A stretch of DNA of 64,000 nucleotides, from contig JAFRSH010000052.1 in NCBI GenBank assembly GCA_017427685.1, positions 124,001-188,000 on the forward strand, written 5' to 3'. Origin of the DNA: Lachnospiraceae bacterium (GTDB lineage: Bacteria > Bacillota > Clostridia > Lachnospirales > Lachnospiraceae). Below are positions 43,052-52,083 of the stretch, piece by piece (position 1 is the stretch's first letter; each line of letters starts with the position of its first letter). The notes below the pieces were generated by a model. It searched no databases, had not been told where the DNA came from, and was given only the letters and a program-made list of their open reading frames with translations. Position numbers and translations under genes: made by a program.

Positions 43052-45460
43052 ATGAGTATTAGATCATCAGAAAGCTTGGTAGGTGCAATGCAGGATGCGA
43101 TCGATCCGATGACCGGATTTTTGAATCGCGGAGGATTTTACAATTGTCTGACCAATGTCCTTGCCCTGGGCTCGGCAGGCAAAAGAAACGTTCTTTTGTT
43201 TACGGTTAAGCTCAAGGATCTGTCTCGGATCTGTGAGCTTTGGTCCGAGAACGAGAAAAAAAGCGTTATAAATGCCGGTGCGAAGCTTATCGCACATGTT
43301 GTCCGCGGTCGTGCTGTCTGCGCCAGGATTTCCGAAGGTCGTTTCATGTTCGTTACCGACGTGGCGGTTGATGACGTTACGACCGCAAGCTCGATCCAGG
43401 AAGAGCTGACGTTCCGCTTTGACCGGTTTAATGAGATCTCTTCAAAGGATTACAGTCTTAATGCCGCTATATCATATATGCTCATCGCTCCGGATTCCGG
43501 ACTTACTCCCGATGAAGTGCTCTCACAGATGATCGCTAAAAGCAGAGAGATGCTCGATTCCGAGTCTCAGGGCCGTTATGCGGCTATACAGGACGGAGAC
43601 GATGATCCCAAGCTCAGAAGCTCGGTTATCAAGATCCTTGATAACAACGAGTTCGACTATCACTTCCAGCCCATTATCAGCGCCAAGACCGGAGATATCG
43701 TCGGTTATGAGGCTCTGATGCGTATGCCCGCCAAGTACGGTCTGTCGCCTCTTACACTTCTCAAATACGCAAGTGAAGAAAACAGACTCGGTGATGTGGA
43801 AAGAGCGACTGTTTTCAATGTCATGAAGAAGATGACGGAGCTAAAAAAGGAGATCGGAGACAGGAAAGTATTCATCAACAGTATTCCGGGTCATTATCTG
43901 TCCGAGGATGAATTTGGTGTTCTTACGGACAAGTACGGCTCGCTTTTTAACAGGGTCGTTATCGAGGTTACCGAAGAGACCAACATGGAGGACAAGACGT
44001 TCGAGCTCTTGAACAAAAGAACAGGCAAGAACGGTATCCAGGTTGCGGTAGATGACTTCGGAACAGGCTATTCAAACGTTAAGAATCTGCTCAAATTCCT
44101 GCCCCATTATGTCAAGATAGACAGGTTCCTCATCTCGGAGCTCCATATGGATCCGAGAAAGCAGCATTTCGTAAATACGATCATTCAGTTCGCGCATGAC
44201 AACGGGTTCCAGGCTCTCGCGGAAGGCGTTGAAACATCCGAGGAGTTAAATGCCGTTATCCGTATGGGCGCTGACCTGATCCAGGGCTTCTATACAGCCA
44301 AGCCGGCTCCCGAGCCCCTGAACGCTCTGCCCGCTAATCTCCTTACCGAGATAAGCAGAGCCAATCTCGATATGCTTTCCGGTAATTCGAGACAGAAGAT
44401 ATATCTTGTTAAGGATGAAACCGAGCTTTCACTTGTCGATCTTACTCTCCGTAAGTATAATGTCATCTTGCTTTCGGGCGGGGACATTACCCTGGTCGGC
44501 AACTCCGATTTTACATCGGCTGTATCGATCCGTGTCAAGGATCATGCGGAGTGCAGACTTACCGTCAGGGATGTTAATATTGGCGATGTTGACGCAACGC
44601 CTTGTATAGATCTCGGGAAGGAGTCTTCACTTACCCTGAATATCGAGGGCTATAATGTATTCACCGGTAACGGTATCCGCGTTCCGGACGGCTCTGAACT
44701 CAACCTTGAAGGAAACGGTGTTCTCTCGATCAAGCCTACCTTTACAAATGCGTACGGTATCGGAAACGATTATCACAGCACCTTCGGAAGGATTGCTTCC
44801 ACGATGACCGGTACTCTCGAGATCATCATAAGCGGTGAAAACTGCGTATGTGTCGGCGGTAAGTCATCCGATCACGAGAGAGCCATCGATCTTCAGTCCG
44901 GCATCTTTAAGGGTGTATGCGCGGCTTCCAACTGTGTCTGCATCGGGTCATATACCGACAAAACATCTATTTATATCGCACAAATGGATGTTTCGATCGA
45001 TGTCAGGATCAATACCGGAGCCATGGTCGGATCGATGTTCGGCGAGCAGGATATTCATATCAACAACACACTTCTGAGGATCTTCGGATCAGGCAACAAA
45101 GTCACGGGTGTCGGTTCGCTCGAAAAAACAAGCGGCGGCATCTATGTCAAGGACAGTACCGTCGATGTTTCGCTCAAGGGCTGGAATATCATGGAGATCG
45201 GAGCGGAAGGCGGAGATCTTCTGATCGACTGCAGCTACAGCAGAGTGTTGCTCACCGCCGAAGGAAACAGCTCGACAGGTATCGGCTGTCGCGATCATGA
45301 GGCTACTGTTTCACTTAACAATGTCGGCATCGATATGTGCCTGTTCAGTGCAAACTGTGTATTGTTCGGTTGCAAACCCGAAACATTCAGGGATCAGATG
45401 AATGCCTTCACAATAAAGCGTGACGGTATGATGGCAGAGAGGACCAAATGGTTCAACTGA
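43052..45460 (+). CDS. EAL phosphodiesterase with degenerate GGDEF and C-terminal beta-solenoid-like domain
   Basis: An 802-residue protein. Residues 15-180 are GGDEF-like, but the active-site loop reads ARISEGRF, so no cyclase activity is expected. Residues 195-435 form an EAL domain with catalytic motifs kept: GYEALMRM, VFINSIPG, VIEVTEETN, AVDDFGTGYSN, VKIDRFLI, ALAEGVET and GFYTAKP. It probably hydrolyses cyclic di-GMP. Residues 450-800 are short beta-strand repeats (SSLTLNIEGYNVFTGNGI, GGIYVKDSTVDVSL) like bacterial carbohydrate-binding beta-helix proteins, with recurrent CVC(V/I)G motifs. There is no signal or membrane segment. The role of the tail is unknown. Confidence 0.85.
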   Translation: MSIRSSESLVGAMQDAIDPMTGFLNRGGFYNCLTNVLALGSAGKRNVLLFTVKLKDLSRICELWSENEKKSVINAGAKLIAHVVRGRAVCARISEGRFMFVTDVAVDDVTTASSIQEELTFRFDRFNEISSKDYSLNAAISYMLIAPDSGLTPDEVLSQMIAKSREMLDSESQGRYAAIQDGDDDPKLRSSVIKILDNNEFDYHFQPIISAKTGDIVGYEALMRMPAKYGLSPLTLLKYASEENRLGDVERATVFNVMKKMTELKKEIGDRKVFINSIPGHYLSEDEFGVLTDKYGSLFNRVVIEVTEETNMEDKTFELLNKRTGKNGIQVAVDDFGTGYSNVKNLLKFLPHYVKIDRFLISELHMDPRKQHFVNTIIQFAHDNGFQALAEGVETSEELNAVIRMGADLIQGFYTAKPAPEPLNALPANLLTEISRANLDMLSGNSRQKIYLVKDETELSLVDLTLRKYNVILLSGGDITLVGNSDFTSAVSIRVKDHAECRLTVRDVNIGDVDATPCIDLGKESSLTLNIEGYNVFTGNGIRVPDGSELNLEGNGVLSIKPTFTNAYGIGNDYHSTFGRIASTMTGTLEIIISGENCVCVGGKSSDHERAIDLQSGIFKGVCAASNCVCIGSYTDKTSIYIAQMDVSIDVRINTGAMVGSMFGEQDIHINNTLLRIFGSGNKVTGVGSLEKTSGGIYVKDSTVDVSLKGWNIMEIGAEGGDLLIDCSYSRVLLTAEGNSSTGIGCRDHEATVSLNNVGIDMCLFSANCVLFGCKPETFRDQMNAFTIKRDGMMAERTKWFN

Positions 45461-45495: not shown

Positions 45496-48294
45496 ATGCA
45501 ACGATTGGTTATCGGAATCCTTGCGCACGTCGATGCGGGGAAGACTACGCTGTCCGAAGCGATCCTTTACAAGACGGAGAAGATCAGGAAACTGGGAAGA
45601 GTCGACAAGAAAGACGCCTTCCTTGATAACTATTCGCTTGAACGTGAGCGCGGCATAACCATATTCTCAAAACAGGCAGTATTTAACCGTGGAGATGTGT
45701 CTTTTACGCTTATAGACACGCCCGGACATGTTGATTTCTCAACCGAAACTGAAAGATCGTTGTCAGTTCTTGATATAGCCGTTCTGGTCATCAGCGGAAC
45801 TGACGGTGTAGAGGCTCACACCAGGACTCTCTGGCGACTTCTTGAGCACTACGACATCCCGACTTTTATCTTTATAAACAAGATGGACCGTGACGGAACA
45901 GACCGTGACGCACTCGCCCAAGAGCTTGCGTCGCAGCTTTCCGATGCCTGTATTCCTTTCGATGATCCGGACTTTAAAGAGCATATCGCCATGTGCGACG
46001 AAGAGGTCATGGAGAATTACCTTGAAACCGGTGATATCTCAGTTGAAGACATCAGGGAGCTTGTCGGCGAAAGGAAGCTATTCCCTTGTTTCTACGGGTC
46101 TGCATTAAGGCTGGACGGAGTGGATGAGTTTCTTGACGGACTTGTCGGATATTCACCGCGTGTACCCCTTGAAGAAGAATTCTCCGCAAGGGTATATAAG
46201 ATAGGCCGCGACGCCGAGGGCAACAGGCTCACTTACATGAAACTGACGGGCGGAGTCTTAAAGAACAGAATCGTGCTTGAATACACGGCTCTTCGTGATG
46301 AAACGGTCTTACTGCGTAAACAGGACGATGAAGCGGATGATTCGCCCGCGATCGTCGATTACAAAGAGAAGGTCACGCAAATCCGTATATATGACGGTGA
46401 AAAGTTCGAAACATCGGAGACTGCCGAACAGGGTATGGTCGTGGCTGTACTCGGCCTTACCGCCACATTTGCGGGACAGATAATGGGCCCGGAAGACGAT
46501 GAACCCGCGAAACGGATCGTCCCCGTTATGACTTACAAGGTGATCGCCCGTGACAGGTCGGCACTCACCGCGCTTTTACCTAAGCTTAAGATCCTCGAGG
46601 AAGAGGATCCTACACTCGGCGTGGTATGGAACGATGAGCTCAGGGAACTGCAGATCAGGGTTATGGGAGAGATACAGCTTGAGATCATCAAGCGCCAGAT
46701 GTCGGACCGCTTCGGGGAAGATGTGGATTTCGACAAAGGAAGCGTTCTTTACAAAGAAACTGTCTCGGAACCTGTACTCGGTGTAGGTCATTTTGAGCCG
46801 CTCAGGCACTACGCCGAAGCACAGCTTCTTATCGAGCCCGCCGCGAGAGGGATGGGACTCTCAGCCGAATCGAGAGTTGCCGTCAACGACCTTGAACTCA
46901 ACTGGCAGCGACTCATCCTCACTCACATATACGAAAGAAGACATAAGGGAGTCCTCACGGGGGCTGAACTTACGGACGTGAACATAGCCATTGTGGCGGG
47001 ACGAGCGCACCTCAAGCACACAGAAGGCGGAGACTTCAGACAGGCCACCTACAGGGCTGTCAGACAGGGACTGATGCGTGCGCGGGAGGAAGGCAAGTGC
47101 GTGCTCCTCGAGCCCTTCTACGAGCTTACGATCGAGCTTCCGCGCGCTAATTGCGGTCGTGCGATGACCGATATAGAGAGCCGCTCGGGACGCGTGACAT
47201 CTCAGTACGAGATAGGGGTTCATGACATGGTCGGGATCACGGGTGTGGCGCCTGTTTCGACCATGCAGGGATACTCACGCGAGGTTGCGGCCTACACCAA
47301 GGGCCTCGGGAGCGTTTACTGCTCGTTCCTCGGGTATCTCCCGTGCCATAACACTGACGAAGTTGTGGCTGCGAGCGCTTATGACCCCGAGAAGGATCTG
47401 CGCAACCCCTCGTCATCTGTTTTCTGCGCTCACGGTGCGGGCTTTGTTGTTGAATGGAACGATGTCGACAGCTATAAGCATCTTGACTGGGATATAGACA
47501 CAGGGACCCTTAAGGAAGAAAAGGTCACTGATCCCACAGCTCCGATACGCTTTATCTCTCATGCCGGAGAAGAACCCTCTATCGGTACGGAAGAGATCGA
47601 TTCGATCCTTGCCAAGACCTTCCATGCAAACAAGAAGGACAAGACATACAGGAATCCCTTCAGAAAGCACAAGGGGACGATTGCAGCTTATTCATACGAT
47701 TCGGGTCGAAGCAGAAGAGCGTATGACGGCGCTAATGCAGGTGACGCAGGCGCAAACGGAGCTTCGGGCGATAAAACGGTTGAGGTAAAAGACAGATACA
47801 CCAAGAGCATTAAACCGGACACGAGGGAGAGATACCTGCTTGTAGACGGCTATAACATCATCTTCAAGTGGCCTGAACTCTCGGACATCGCGAAAGTCAA
47901 TATCGACGGTGCGAGGGACAGACTCAACGACATCCTCTGCGATTATCAGTCACAGAAGGGATGCAAGCTGATGGTCGTATACGATGCTTACCGAGTCAGC
48001 GGACATCCCACAGAATACTTTAACTACCACAACATCATCGTGGTATTCACGAAGGAAGCGGAGACTGCGGACAAGTTCATAGAGCGCTTCGCGCACGAGA
48101 ACGCGAAGCAGGCAGACATAAGCGTGGCGACGTCCGACGGACTTGAGCAGATAATCATACGAGGTGCGGGATGCGCTCTCGTGACGGCTAATGATCTCTT
48201 AGAAGACGTGAAGAACTTACGATCTGTAATTCGTGACAAAATAGAAGGGAAATATATACAGAGTGCTACCACCAGAATCGGGGACTTGATGTAA
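45496..48294 (+). CDS. TetM-like translational GTPase fused to a YacP/Rae1-type NYN nuclease domain
   Basis: A 932-residue fusion. Residues 1-660 follow EF-G/TetM order: GTPase motifs AHVDAGKTTLSE, ERGITIF, DTPGHVDFS and NKMDRDG, then domains II-V (QIRVMGEIQLEIIKRQMSDR; IESRSGRVTSQY). A low-complexity linker of Gly/Ala/Asn/Asp follows around 735-765. Residues 775-925 are a NYN/PIN-like domain (LLVDGYNIIFKWPEL, RDRLNDILCDYQ, MVVYDAYRVSG, VVFTKEAETADKFIER, VATSDGLEQIII), matching YacP, whose Bacillus member Rae1 is a ribosome-dependent mRNA endonuclease. The pairing suggests a GTPase that brings a nuclease to the ribosomal A site. Tetracycline resistance should not be assumed. A terminator overlaps the last codons. 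Confidence 0.85.
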   Translation: MQRLVIGILAHVDAGKTTLSEAILYKTEKIRKLGRVDKKDAFLDNYSLERERGITIFSKQAVFNRGDVSFTLIDTPGHVDFSTETERSLSVLDIAVLVISGTDGVEAHTRTLWRLLEHYDIPTFIFINKMDRDGTDRDALAQELASQLSDACIPFDDPDFKEHIAMCDEEVMENYLETGDISVEDIRELVGERKLFPCFYGSALRLDGVDEFLDGLVGYSPRVPLEEEFSARVYKIGRDAEGNRLTYMKLTGGVLKNRIVLEYTALRDETVLLRKQDDEADDSPAIVDYKEKVTQIRIYDGEKFETSETAEQGMVVAVLGLTATFAGQIMGPEDDEPAKRIVPVMTYKVIARDRSALTALLPKLKILEEEDPTLGVVWNDELRELQIRVMGEIQLEIIKRQMSDRFGEDVDFDKGSVLYKETVSEPVLGVGHFEPLRHYAEAQLLIEPAARGMGLSAESRVAVNDLELNWQRLILTHIYERRHKGVLTGAELTDVNIAIVAGRAHLKHTEGGDFRQATYRAVRQGLMRAREEGKCVLLEPFYELTIELPRANCGRAMTDIESRSGRVTSQYEIGVHDMVGITGVAPVSTMQGYSREVAAYTKGLGSVYCSFLGYLPCHNTDEVVAASAYDPEKDLRNPSSSVFCAHGAGFVVEWNDVDSYKHLDWDIDTGTLKEEKVTDPTAPIRFISHAGEEPSIGTEEIDSILAKTFHANKKDKTYRNPFRKHKGTIAAYSYDSGRSRRAYDGANAGDAGANGASGDKTVEVKDRYTKSIKPDTRERYLLVDGYNIIFKWPELSDIAKVNIDGARDRLNDILCDYQSQKGCKLMVVYDAYRVSGHPTEYFNYHNIIVVFTKEAETADKFIERFAHENAKQADISVATSDGLEQIIIRGAGCALVTANDLLEDVKNLRSVIRDKIEGKYIQSATTRIGDLM

Positions 48295-48341: not shown

Positions 48342-50123
48342 TTATGCTATATCATCCAACTGGCTAGTATAGAGCTTATAATACGCCCCCTTAGCAGCCA
48401 TTAGCTCGTCATGATTTCCGGCTTCAACAATTCCTCCGTCATCCACGTACATGATCAGATCGCACCCGCGTATCGTCGAAAGCCTGTGCGCGATAATGAA
48501 CGAAGTACGTCCTTTGAGCATCGTATCAAGTCCCTTCTGGAGCGCCTTCTCGGTCTGCACATCAATGCTTGACGTTGCTTCGTCGAGGATCAGGATCGCG
48601 GGATCGGAGAGCAGCGTCCTTGCGAAGGAGATGAGCTGCTTCTGGCCCTGGGAGAGGAGTGAACCGCGCTCTTTGACCTCGGTGTCGTAGCCTGCAGGCA
48701 TGTTCTTGATGAAGTTGTCCGCGCAGACCATCTTGGAGGCTTCGATGATCTCTTCGTCGGTCGCGTCAAGCTTTCCGTAACGGATGTTGTCCTTGATCGT
48801 GCCGGAGAAGATAAAGCTGTCCTGAAGCATGATACCCATCTGCGAGCGCAGGGATTCAAGCGTAACCTTGCTGATGTCTGTACCGTCTATCAGGACACGT
48901 CCGCTCTCCACGTTGTAGAATCTTGAGATCAGGTTCACGATCGTACTCTTGCCGGCGCCTGTGGGTCCGACGAGCGCAACGCTCATGCCGGGCTCGATCT
49001 TAAAGGACACGTGGTGGAGCACCTCTTTGTCTTCTTCGTAACTGAACGAAACGTTGTCAAACTCGACTGCGCCTTTGATGGGAGGAAGCTCCGTAGCATC
49101 CTCTGCGTTGTCGACTGTGACCTTCTGACCCATGGTCTCGAAGATCCTCTCGAGATATGCCATGTTGTTCATGAAGTTGTTGAAGATATTTCCGAGGTTC
49201 ATGATGGGCTGCCAGAAGCGTGCCGCATACGACGAGATCGCGATGATAACTCCGACAGACTTGGCACCCGCACCGAACAGTATCATACCGAACAGGAAGA
49301 TCGCTGCTCTGATGAACACCGAGATACCGTCGATACCGGGCCAGATAAGGTTGTTGTAAGTAACAGCCTTCATCCAGGTCTTACGGCAATCCTGCGAAAG
49401 GTCTGCGAAGATCTCGGCATTTTCCTGCTCACGGGCAAAGATCTGTGTGATACGTGCGCCCACGATATTCTCCTGAAGGTACGCGTTGAGGTTTGAGTTC
49501 TTGTTCGAAACACGTTGCCATGCCCTGCGCTGTCTGTTCTTGATGAAGAAGAGAAACGCGGCAAGTATCGGAACGCCGCACAGAACAACGAGCGACATCT
49601 CGACATCCTCGATAAGCATGAAGATCACGATGAAGATCAGGTTTATCATCTCAAGGATGGTGTTTATAAGTCCGTTTGAGAGCATATCCGAAACGGAGTT
49701 GACGTAGTTAACGACACGGATGAGGATCTTGCCGTGAGGACGTGAGTCGTAGTAATCGAAGGAAAGCTTCTGCAGGTGTGCGAAGAGGTCCTTTCTGATG
49801 TCGAAGATGATGCTCTGCGATACCTTCACCATGATCCTCTGACGGATCGTTACGAAGATAATGCTTACAACGAAAGCTACGACCAACAGGATCACGAGTG
49901 TGATCAGATATTTTACGTCACCGTCCGGGATCGCGTGATCGAGCGCCTGCTGAGTGATCATGGGCGAGAAGAGAGCGGCACCGCCGGCGATCGCGCTCAT
50001 AAGCATTGCGAGGATCATGCGTGAAAGGTATTTTTTAATGTATTTCGAGGCGAGCAGGATGTGCTTCATGCTGAATTCTTCTTCAAGCTGCTCATCGACT
50101 CTGAAGGTGTTTCTTTTAGCCAT
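48342..50123 (-). CDS. ABC exporter half-transporter with consensus catalytic site
   Basis: A 593-residue type IV exporter subunit: six membrane helices (residues 30-325) then an ATPase domain with Walker A GPTGAGKST near 388, Q-loop GIMLQDSFIF, signature LLSQGQKQLISFA and Walker B LILDEATSSID with the catalytic Glu. It starts two bases from the stop of the paired half-transporter, so both form one heterodimer. The signature LSQGQ deviates from LSGGQ and would face the partner's degenerate site, the usual arrangement in asymmetric exporters such as TM287/288. Substrate is unknown; the annotation multidrug would be a guess. Confidence 0.9.
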   Translation of the reverse strand: MAKRNTFRVDEQLEEEFSMKHILLASKYIKKYLSRMILAMLMSAIAGGAALFSPMITQQALDHAIPDGDVKYLITLVILLVVAFVVSIIFVTIRQRIMVKVSQSIIFDIRKDLFAHLQKLSFDYYDSRPHGKILIRVVNYVNSVSDMLSNGLINTILEMINLIFIVIFMLIEDVEMSLVVLCGVPILAAFLFFIKNRQRRAWQRVSNKNSNLNAYLQENIVGARITQIFAREQENAEIFADLSQDCRKTWMKAVTYNNLIWPGIDGISVFIRAAIFLFGMILFGAGAKSVGVIIAISSYAARFWQPIMNLGNIFNNFMNNMAYLERIFETMGQKVTVDNAEDATELPPIKGAVEFDNVSFSYEEDKEVLHHVSFKIEPGMSVALVGPTGAGKSTIVNLISRFYNVESGRVLIDGTDISKVTLESLRSQMGIMLQDSFIFSGTIKDNIRYGKLDATDEEIIEASKMVCADNFIKNMPAGYDTEVKERGSLLSQGQKQLISFARTLLSDPAILILDEATSSIDVQTEKALQKGLDTMLKGRTSFIIAHRLSTIRGCDLIMYVDDGGIVEAGNHDELMAAKGAYYKLYTSQLDDIA

Positions 50124-50124
50124 C

Positions 50125-51975
50125 CTAGTTCACCCCCTTACCTGCGAGTTGCGCAGTCATATTAACGGAATCTTTAAGTACTCCGTCCTTAAGCTCCAGA
50201 CCTGTCTGAAGCTCAACAAGATTGGCATAGTAGCCGCCCTTCATGCAGAGCTCTTTATGGGTGCCTTCCTCGATGATGCGTCCGTCACCCATAACAAAGA
50301 TCTTGTCGCAGTACTTGGTGGTCGAGATCCTCTGTGCGATGATGATCTTCGTGCAATTGAAGTCAAGCTCGTTGAGGGAATCCCTGATGTGTTTCTCGGT
50401 CTCCATATCGACCGCGGAAGTCGTGTCGTCGAGGATCAGGATCGAGGGCTTGATGGCAAGCGCGCGTGCAAGCGAGATACGCTGCTTCTGACCGCCCGAA
50501 AGTCCGACGCCGCGTTCGCCGACGATCGTCTCGTAGCCGTCGGGCATCTTGTCGATGAATTCCTGTGCGGCTGAGTAGCGCGCGTACTTCACAACCTCGT
50601 CCTGTGAGAGCGAGCTGTCACCGTACGCGATATTGCCTTCGATCGTGTCGGAGTAGAGGAGCACGTCCTGAGTCGCAAGACCGATGTTGTGTCTGAGGTC
50701 GGTGAGCTCGTAGTCACTGACGTTTATGCCGTCGATCCGCACTTCCCCTTCAGCCGGGTCATAGAAGCGGGGGATCATATGAATTAAAGATGTTTTACCG
50801 CATCCCGTTTCACCGATGATGGCTACGGTCTGTCCGGGTTCGATCTTCATGGAGATATCACGAAGTACGGGGACCGCTCCGCCTTCATAGCCGAACGATA
50901 CATGATCGAATTCGATGAGACCCTTGAAACGGTCGGGATGCTTGATCGCGTTCTCCTTGGAAACAATGCCGGCCTGAGAGTTGTATATCTCCATGACCTT
51001 CTTTGAAGCAGCGGCAAAGCGCTGGAATTCGTTCATGATATTGCCGAGCATACGCATGGGATTGGCGATAGCCCATATAAGCATTGAGAAGGAAACGTAC
51101 TCGCCGATCCCGATCCTGCCGTTGATGATGAAGAGTCCGCCGGCAAGCAGCAGGATAACGGGCAGCAGGTTGGCAAACGTCTCGATTACGGGGAAGTATC
51201 TGAGCCATGTACGCTGTGTGTCCATGTTCGCTTCGGCGTAGTCGGTATTGGAACGGTTGAATTTGTCCTTCTCGTACTCTTCGCGGGCAAAGGCCTTAAC
51301 AACACGGTTACCGGAGATGTTCTCCTGAGCGTCCGTGTTGAGGTTGGAGAGCTTGTCACGCAGTATGCGGTGCTTCTGTGCGGAAGCCTTCTTAAAGCGA
51401 AGGATGACCAGAAACAGGAGAGGAGTGATCGAGAGCACGCAGAGCGCGAGCAACCAGTCCATGATAAAGAAGTAAACGGCGGTGGCTATAAAGAGCGAGA
51501 AGCTGTCGACCACCGACTTGATAACCCATGCGACGTTATGACGTACAGCATCAAGATCACCGGTGAGACGGGTCATAAGGTCTCCGGTGCGGTACTCGTT
51601 GTAGAAGTTCATGTCCTGATGCTCGATCTTGTCGAAGAGGAAGTTCCTGATCTTGTAAAGAGCGTGCTGCGAGACATACTCGTAAGCCATGCACGTAAAA
51701 TAAACGATCGTGATCCTGACAAGCGTCAGACCGATCATGAGTGAGAGGTTGAGTATGAATTCGTCAAGATTGTCTGTAAGAGGTGTGCCCTTCGCACCCG
51801 CCTCTTCGAAAAGCGTAACAATACGTCCCGAATAATACGGAACGATGAGCTGCATTATGTTATAAACGATCGTCATGATAATGGCCGTAACGTAGAGGAC
51901 ACGATGTCCCTGCATGTTCCCCCAAAGCCATTTCATCCATGATCTTTGCTTTACTTCACGGACTGTCTTATCCAT
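50125..51975 (-). CDS. ABC exporter half-transporter with degenerate catalytic site
   Basis: A 616-residue partner subunit with six membrane helices and an ATPase domain: Walker A GETGCGKTS, Q-loop GLATQDVLLY, canonical signature VGLSGGQKQRISLARAL, and Walker B LILDDTTSAVD in which Asp replaces the catalytic Glu. This marks the degenerate site of a heterodimer. The start at 51975 is chosen over the longer frame to 52032 because AAAGAGGAG precedes it. A 7-bp hairpin stands immediately upstream of that ribosome site. It is the first gene of the two-gene operon. Confidence 0.9.
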   Translation of the reverse strand: MDKTVREVKQRSWMKWLWGNMQGHRVLYVTAIIMTIVYNIMQLIVPYYSGRIVTLFEEAGAKGTPLTDNLDEFILNLSLMIGLTLVRITIVYFTCMAYEYVSQHALYKIRNFLFDKIEHQDMNFYNEYRTGDLMTRLTGDLDAVRHNVAWVIKSVVDSFSLFIATAVYFFIMDWLLALCVLSITPLLFLVILRFKKASAQKHRILRDKLSNLNTDAQENISGNRVVKAFAREEYEKDKFNRSNTDYAEANMDTQRTWLRYFPVIETFANLLPVILLLAGGLFIINGRIGIGEYVSFSMLIWAIANPMRMLGNIMNEFQRFAAASKKVMEIYNSQAGIVSKENAIKHPDRFKGLIEFDHVSFGYEGGAVPVLRDISMKIEPGQTVAIIGETGCGKTSLIHMIPRFYDPAEGEVRIDGINVSDYELTDLRHNIGLATQDVLLYSDTIEGNIAYGDSSLSQDEVVKYARYSAAQEFIDKMPDGYETIVGERGVGLSGGQKQRISLARALAIKPSILILDDTTSAVDMETEKHIRDSLNELDFNCTKIIIAQRISTTKYCDKIFVMGDGRIIEEGTHKELCMKGGYYANLVELQTGLELKDGVLKDSVNMTAQLAGKGVN

Positions 51976-51989
51976 TTTTGCTCCTCTTT

Positions 51990-52010
51990 GGATGCGGTTT
52001 TTTCGCATCC
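51990..52010 (-). promoter_or_regulatory. Leader hairpin next to the ABC operon ribosome site
   Basis: GGATGCG pairs with CGCATCC around a 7-base A/T loop (T-run on the plus strand), a few bases upstream of the ribosome site of the ABC operon. It may limit translation initiation or stabilise the mRNA end; function is inferred. Confidence 0.4.
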
Positions 52011-52083
52011 GATCACTTGCCCGGATCATCACCGAAGTACCGGGCCGAACCGGTTTTTTCTTTAAATAAACACATCTTATAAT

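Follow-up and report, generated by a model that had tools for sequence, protein, structure and literature searches.

The question raised by this locus is what a protein does in which a translational GTPase and a nuclease domain of the Rae1 (YacP) type are joined in one reading frame. The gene lies in the window, by which we mean the whole analyzed stretch of 64,000 nucleotides from a Lachnospiraceae genome. A preliminary description of the window had proposed a GTP-driven mRNA cleavage or ribosome-rescue factor, or an antibiotic-responsive one, rather than a tetracycline-resistance protein; GTP-driven cleavage or rescue by the fusion is a prediction. The fusion itself is not a new discovery: Atkinson 2015 (PMC4342817) described YacP-like NYN domains attached to Tet proteins in ten Clostridiales species, with the same architecture of a Tet/EF-G GTPase and a C-terminal YacP-like NYN RNase, and suggested an RNase activity tied to resistance, so the architecture was already known. 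Those fusions were filed under Tet resistance, whereas the fusion in the window has a non-Tet tip loop and belongs to a genome without any other Rae1. No experimental follow-up of the fusion was found in the literature searched, a search that did not take in the primary Rae1 papers.

The gene is a single ATG-initiated frame with zero internal stops, as the preliminary description had stated, and the reverse strand across it is full of stops. The EF-G/Tet-type translational GTPase part extends over residues 4-660, with Pfam matches to GTP_EFTU (residues 4-221, 177.7 bits), EFG_III (343-412), EFG_IV (416-529) and EFG_C (536-619). The intact G1-G5 motifs, which are also kept in the fused and unfused relatives, the presence of domains III-V and the EF-G fold of the model place it in the EF-G/Tet (EF2) family. 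The NYN domain announced for the C-terminus was confirmed by a match of residues 781-920 to NYN_YacP (PF05991), which scores 155.8 bits against a curated cut-off of 24.6, and it is separated from the GTPase by a linker of about 100 amino acids that is predicted to be disordered. The coordinates are collected in Table 1.

Table 1. Features of the fusion gene and its neighbors (window positions; residues are those of the fusion protein).
Feature	Positions	Strand	Residues	Remarks
EAL/GGDEF-domain protein gene	43052..45460			35 nt upstream of the fusion
Complete fusion gene (translational GTPase + linker + Rae1-like NYN nuclease)	45496..48294	+		932 aa
GTP-binding domain	45505..46158	+	4-221	G1 AHVDAGKT, G2 RGITI, G3 DTPGH, G4 NKMD, G5 GSAL intact
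EF-G domains III, IV, V	46522..47352	+	343-619	Pfam and model alignment to EF-G/TetM
Domain IV tip loop GRAHLKHTEGGDFR	46999..47040	+	502-515	Replaces TetM/TetO GLYYSPVSTPADFR
Family-specific GTPase C-terminal extension	47311..47499	+	606-668	Cys617, His618, Cys644, His662 conserved, fused and unfused
Variable linker	47518..47820	+	675-775	Mostly pLDDT < 50
NYN_YacP/Rae1 domain	47836..48255	+	781-920	Pfam, phmmer, conserved acids
Intrinsic terminator-like hairpin over stop codon	48274..48306	+		15 bp stem, T-rich tail; pattern match only
Heterodimeric ABC exporter pair	48342..52032	-		Converges on the fusion gene

An AlphaFold2 model with a mean pLDDT of 73.5, based on 17 fused sequences, comprises an EF-G-like lobe, a low-confidence linker (675-697, 704-775) and an NYN lobe. 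In fold searches, residues 1-633 of the model aligned to EF-G with Z up to 34, and residues 1-656 aligned to TetM (3j9y) with Z 29.5 over 601 aligned residues and an rmsd of 9.8; the large rmsd values probably reflect differing domain arrangements. Folded alone and without an alignment, the NYN part reached a pLDDT of 38, and this model was not used; the fold searches listed EF-G-type chains only, so the comparison of the NYN domain with Rae1 was made by sequence only. The same architecture in many independent genomes rules out an artefactual or sequencing join of two genes. A congener carries a fusion with 81% identity to the window protein from end to end, and dN between the two was low for the two domains (0.110 and 0.143) against 0.319 for the linker (dN alone was used because dS was saturated). 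Both modules are intact and under strong constraint.

Rae1, the sole characterized YacP protein, cuts mRNA in the ribosomal A site (PMC12320835; PMC6613710), and the NYN domain of the fusion is clearly related to it. Against PDB sequences, residues 760-932 matched only the Rae1/YacP structures 5mq8 and 5mq9 (phmmer, E=7.5e-24). The fusion residues D784, D830, D859, E863 and D881 correspond to Rae1 D7, D53, D81, E85 and D104, and these five acidic active-site columns were invariant in 47/47 fused and 32/32 free-standing NYN domains aligned, in line with the catalytic conservation expected by the preliminary description. In contrast to the B. subtilis protein, which is a free-standing polypeptide of about 170 amino acids encoded next to rlmB, the window domain is fused, lies away from rlmB and keeps neither R118, which is a leucine here, nor the LExxRR tail. 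Statistics that are inflated by shared ancestry extend this difference to the family, with R118 kept in 33/34 free-standing and 69/117 fused domains and the tail motif (LEKxRR type) in 27/34 and 5/117, respectively. The loss of R118 in many fusions means that nuclease specificity may differ. In a B. subtilis efp mutant, a suppressor allele that had lost Rae1 function carried R166P in this tail (PMC6613710). Tail loss in most fusions would be expected if the GTPase had replaced the tail for ribosome docking, and part of this task has, we infer, passed to the GTPase, although docking by the tail is itself only deduced. Some fusions (L045, L046) keep a tail remnant, indicating that erosion went on after fusion. 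The NYN part is thus orthologous to Rae1 but, in its new setting, not a canonical Rae1 protein.

This fused domain is the only Rae1 of its host. A separate intact rae1 was sought elsewhere in the genome (98.6% complete) and none was found: the fused domain is its single NYN_YacP match, and none of the sequence-based refuters set out in the preliminary description applied. Free-standing rae1 of relatives mostly adjoins rlmB, often with mrnC and cysS; the cysS-mrnC-rlmB region of the host is without rae1 and has a PTS_EIIC gene between mrnC and rlmB. The survey of fused against separate forms that had been suggested was run in the family Lachnospiraceae: the NYN_YacP domain is present in 137 of 150 genomes, and, counted from frame sizes in the table of family genomes, about 125 of the 137 have fusion-size frames and eight are clearly free-standing. 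At the class level both forms are common, and a few genomes hold both, such as G430 with an 883 aa fusion and a 174 aa Rae1 beside rlmB.

The phylogenies, "quick" trees with moderate support, are compatible with the domain having relocated and fused only once. All fusions fall into one group of the GTPase tree (SH-aLRT 94), separate from the unfused 650-aa sisters and from the Tet proteins; of the two labels in this group that are unfused, one is a fragment at a contig end and the other a split gene. The NYN tree places every fused domain with the free-standing Rae1 proteins of the same family, and the genes of most of these are still located beside rlmB. These groupings are consistent with derivation of the fused form from one fusion event. 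The co-occurrence counts that follow are raw and ignore phylogeny. This type of GTPase is missing from all 12 family genomes without NYN that were tested, as expected if the fused gene was lost; where Rae1 is free-standing, 7/9 family genomes encode such a GTPase, unfused, at another locus (one an interrupted frame). In four genomes of other families the unfused GTPase is present and the NYN domain absent, which indicates an independent function for the GTPase. In one genome (G033, L149) a GTPase of 711 aa and an NYN protein of 190 aa occupy two adjacent frames of one contig, which may reflect either a frameshift or recent splitting of the fused gene, and one clostridial genome (G255) has two unfused GTPases (L132, L133) together with a free-standing Rae1.

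The GTPase half has distinctive features of its own. The tip loop follows the pattern KHTxGGDF in 107/108 fusions, with H505 of the window protein at the column of the EF-G tip histidine, and the Cys...FC..G...His pattern of the C-terminal extension (47344-47481) occurs in 106/108; near the position of the TetM C-terminal helix, this extension is possibly a metal site. The unfused clostridial KHTEGGDF GTPases (e.g., L126 and L128; 44-47% identity), a sister clade of the fusions, share the tip loop and the Cys/His extension, but they are uncharacterized and without the nuclease domain. In the divergent fusions L109/L138 (G150) and L052 (G034) the tip loops are altered (KHTEPPDF in L138, KHTGGGDF in L052) and the tip histidine is missing, a possible case of functional drift.

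On balance, we lean toward the interpretation that the fusion is the organism's Rae1, moved from the rlmB operon onto an EF-G-like GTPase, and that it acts as a GTPase-delivered A-site mRNA endonuclease. More tentatively, and with somewhat less confidence than in that core statement, we propose that nuclease delivery to the A site is gated by GTP, that it has replaced free-standing Rae1 in a large group of gut Clostridia, and that stalled ribosomes are recognized by a tip of neither the EF-G nor the TetM kind. Entry into the A site together with GTP is known for EF-G and Tet factors (PMC8161019). On the proposed reading, the GTP-bound GTPase half would occupy the EF-G/TetM site of ribosomes that have stalled or slowed, and its domain IV would probe the A site when no tRNA is there. 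The flexible linker of about 100 amino acids could then let the NYN domain cut mRNA in or beside the A site, although the model leaves the position of this domain relative to the A site unfixed. GTP hydrolysis would release the factor, and the truncated mRNA would be left for tmRNA and exonucleases; tmRNA is present in the host genome. In such a cycle the GTPase would stand in for Rae1's own tail in docking.

The alternative that fares best among three, and that we nevertheless regard as unlikely, is that two independent housekeeping activities are merely co-expressed: an EF-G-like translocase or recycling paralogue and an ordinary Rae1 that docks by itself. The long disordered linker and the occurrence of both halves apart in other genomes are compatible with this, and the free-standing Rae1 of B. 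subtilis works without any GTPase. However, a single fusion has persisted in many families and has hardly ever split again, and the missing Rae1 tail of the fusions suggests reliance on the partner.

Rather unlikely, in our view, is antibiotic ribosome protection, in which the GTPase would dislodge an A-site drug by means other than the TetM proline loop and the nuclease would clear drug-stalled mRNA. Such a role is close to the suggestion of Atkinson 2015 (PMC4342817), and outside EF-G the nearest characterized relatives are indeed Tet proteins: the fusion shares with Tet(M)/Tet(O) the domain order, the G motifs and an overall fold that matches TetM over its full length. Nonetheless, identity to TetM in the structural alignment is only about 26%, the C-terminal extension differs and the nuclease domain is extra. 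TetM P509 sits in the drug-binding site (PMC8161019), and the corresponding column is occupied by K507, part of a Lys-His-Thr loop that is invariant in the fusion family. Of the "complete TetM/EF-G motifs" of the preliminary description, the EF-G/Tet architecture and all G motifs were thus recovered, but not the drug-displacing YSPVST loop of TetM, which is absent. The window protein scores 377.5 and the fusion family 361-468 with the NCBI tet_protect model, against a cut-off of 775, and the window protein is below all NCBIfam tet cut-offs, while a genuine Tet protein from another clostridial genome (L151), used as a control, passes with 852.9. A canonical TETRACYCLINE-resistance protein is ruled out by the replaced P509 loop and these scores, in agreement with the preliminary description. 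The distribution also argues against antibiotic protection, being vertical and near-universal in the family rather than patchy or mobile. Further uncharacterized Tet-like GTPases (L153, L154 and L155) carry HxxH(T/S) rather than YSPV in the tip loop and are possibly miscalled as resistance genes.

The neighborhood gave no evidence for the antibiotic-responsive factor that the preliminary description had allowed for. The EAL/GGDEF gene, which has a long C-terminal region without a Pfam match, is probably co-transcribed with the fusion, and the 35 nt between them leave no room for an attenuator; no leader is present in the window, which also speaks against antibiotic protection, and the upstream gaps vary among relatives. 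No conserved operon partner was found: the congener aside, only ABC exporters recurred as neighbors of more than four fused loci, and these occur near homologues at about background density. In the window, the fusion gene and a heterodimeric ABC exporter pair are convergently oriented. In B. subtilis, Rae1 has been reported to cut the mRNA of the bmrCD exporter. A phage-defence function was also considered and rejected, as PADLOC yielded only a weak GTPase-like match (LeoA, E=2.5e-4).

Very improbable is cleavage of rRNA or tRNA instead of mRNA, in maturation or in stress inactivation of ribosomes: free-standing rae1 adjoins the rRNA maturation genes mrnC and rlmB, and YacP-type NYN domains were first proposed to act in rRNA/tRNA maturation (Anantharaman and Aravind 2006, as cited in PMC4342817), but the only characterized member, Rae1, cuts A-site mRNA (PMC12320835; PMC6613710).

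Within the literature searched, the new elements are the dominance of the fusion in the family, the replacement of Rae1, the divergence of the tip loop from Tet, the unfused sister clade and the erosion of the tail. Fusion genes are probably miscalled as tetracycline resistance in resistome surveys, and the loop and score differences provide a way to separate them from tetracycline-resistance genes. Since mutations in the GTPase can trap the complex on the ribosome for structural work, the two-domain protein makes Rae1 substrate recognition directly testable. If the two halves cooperate, mRNA cleavage in a major group of gut bacteria is tied to a GTPase that enters the ribosomal A site. To our knowledge, translation-linked mRNA decay or ribosome rescue that works in this way has not been described elsewhere.
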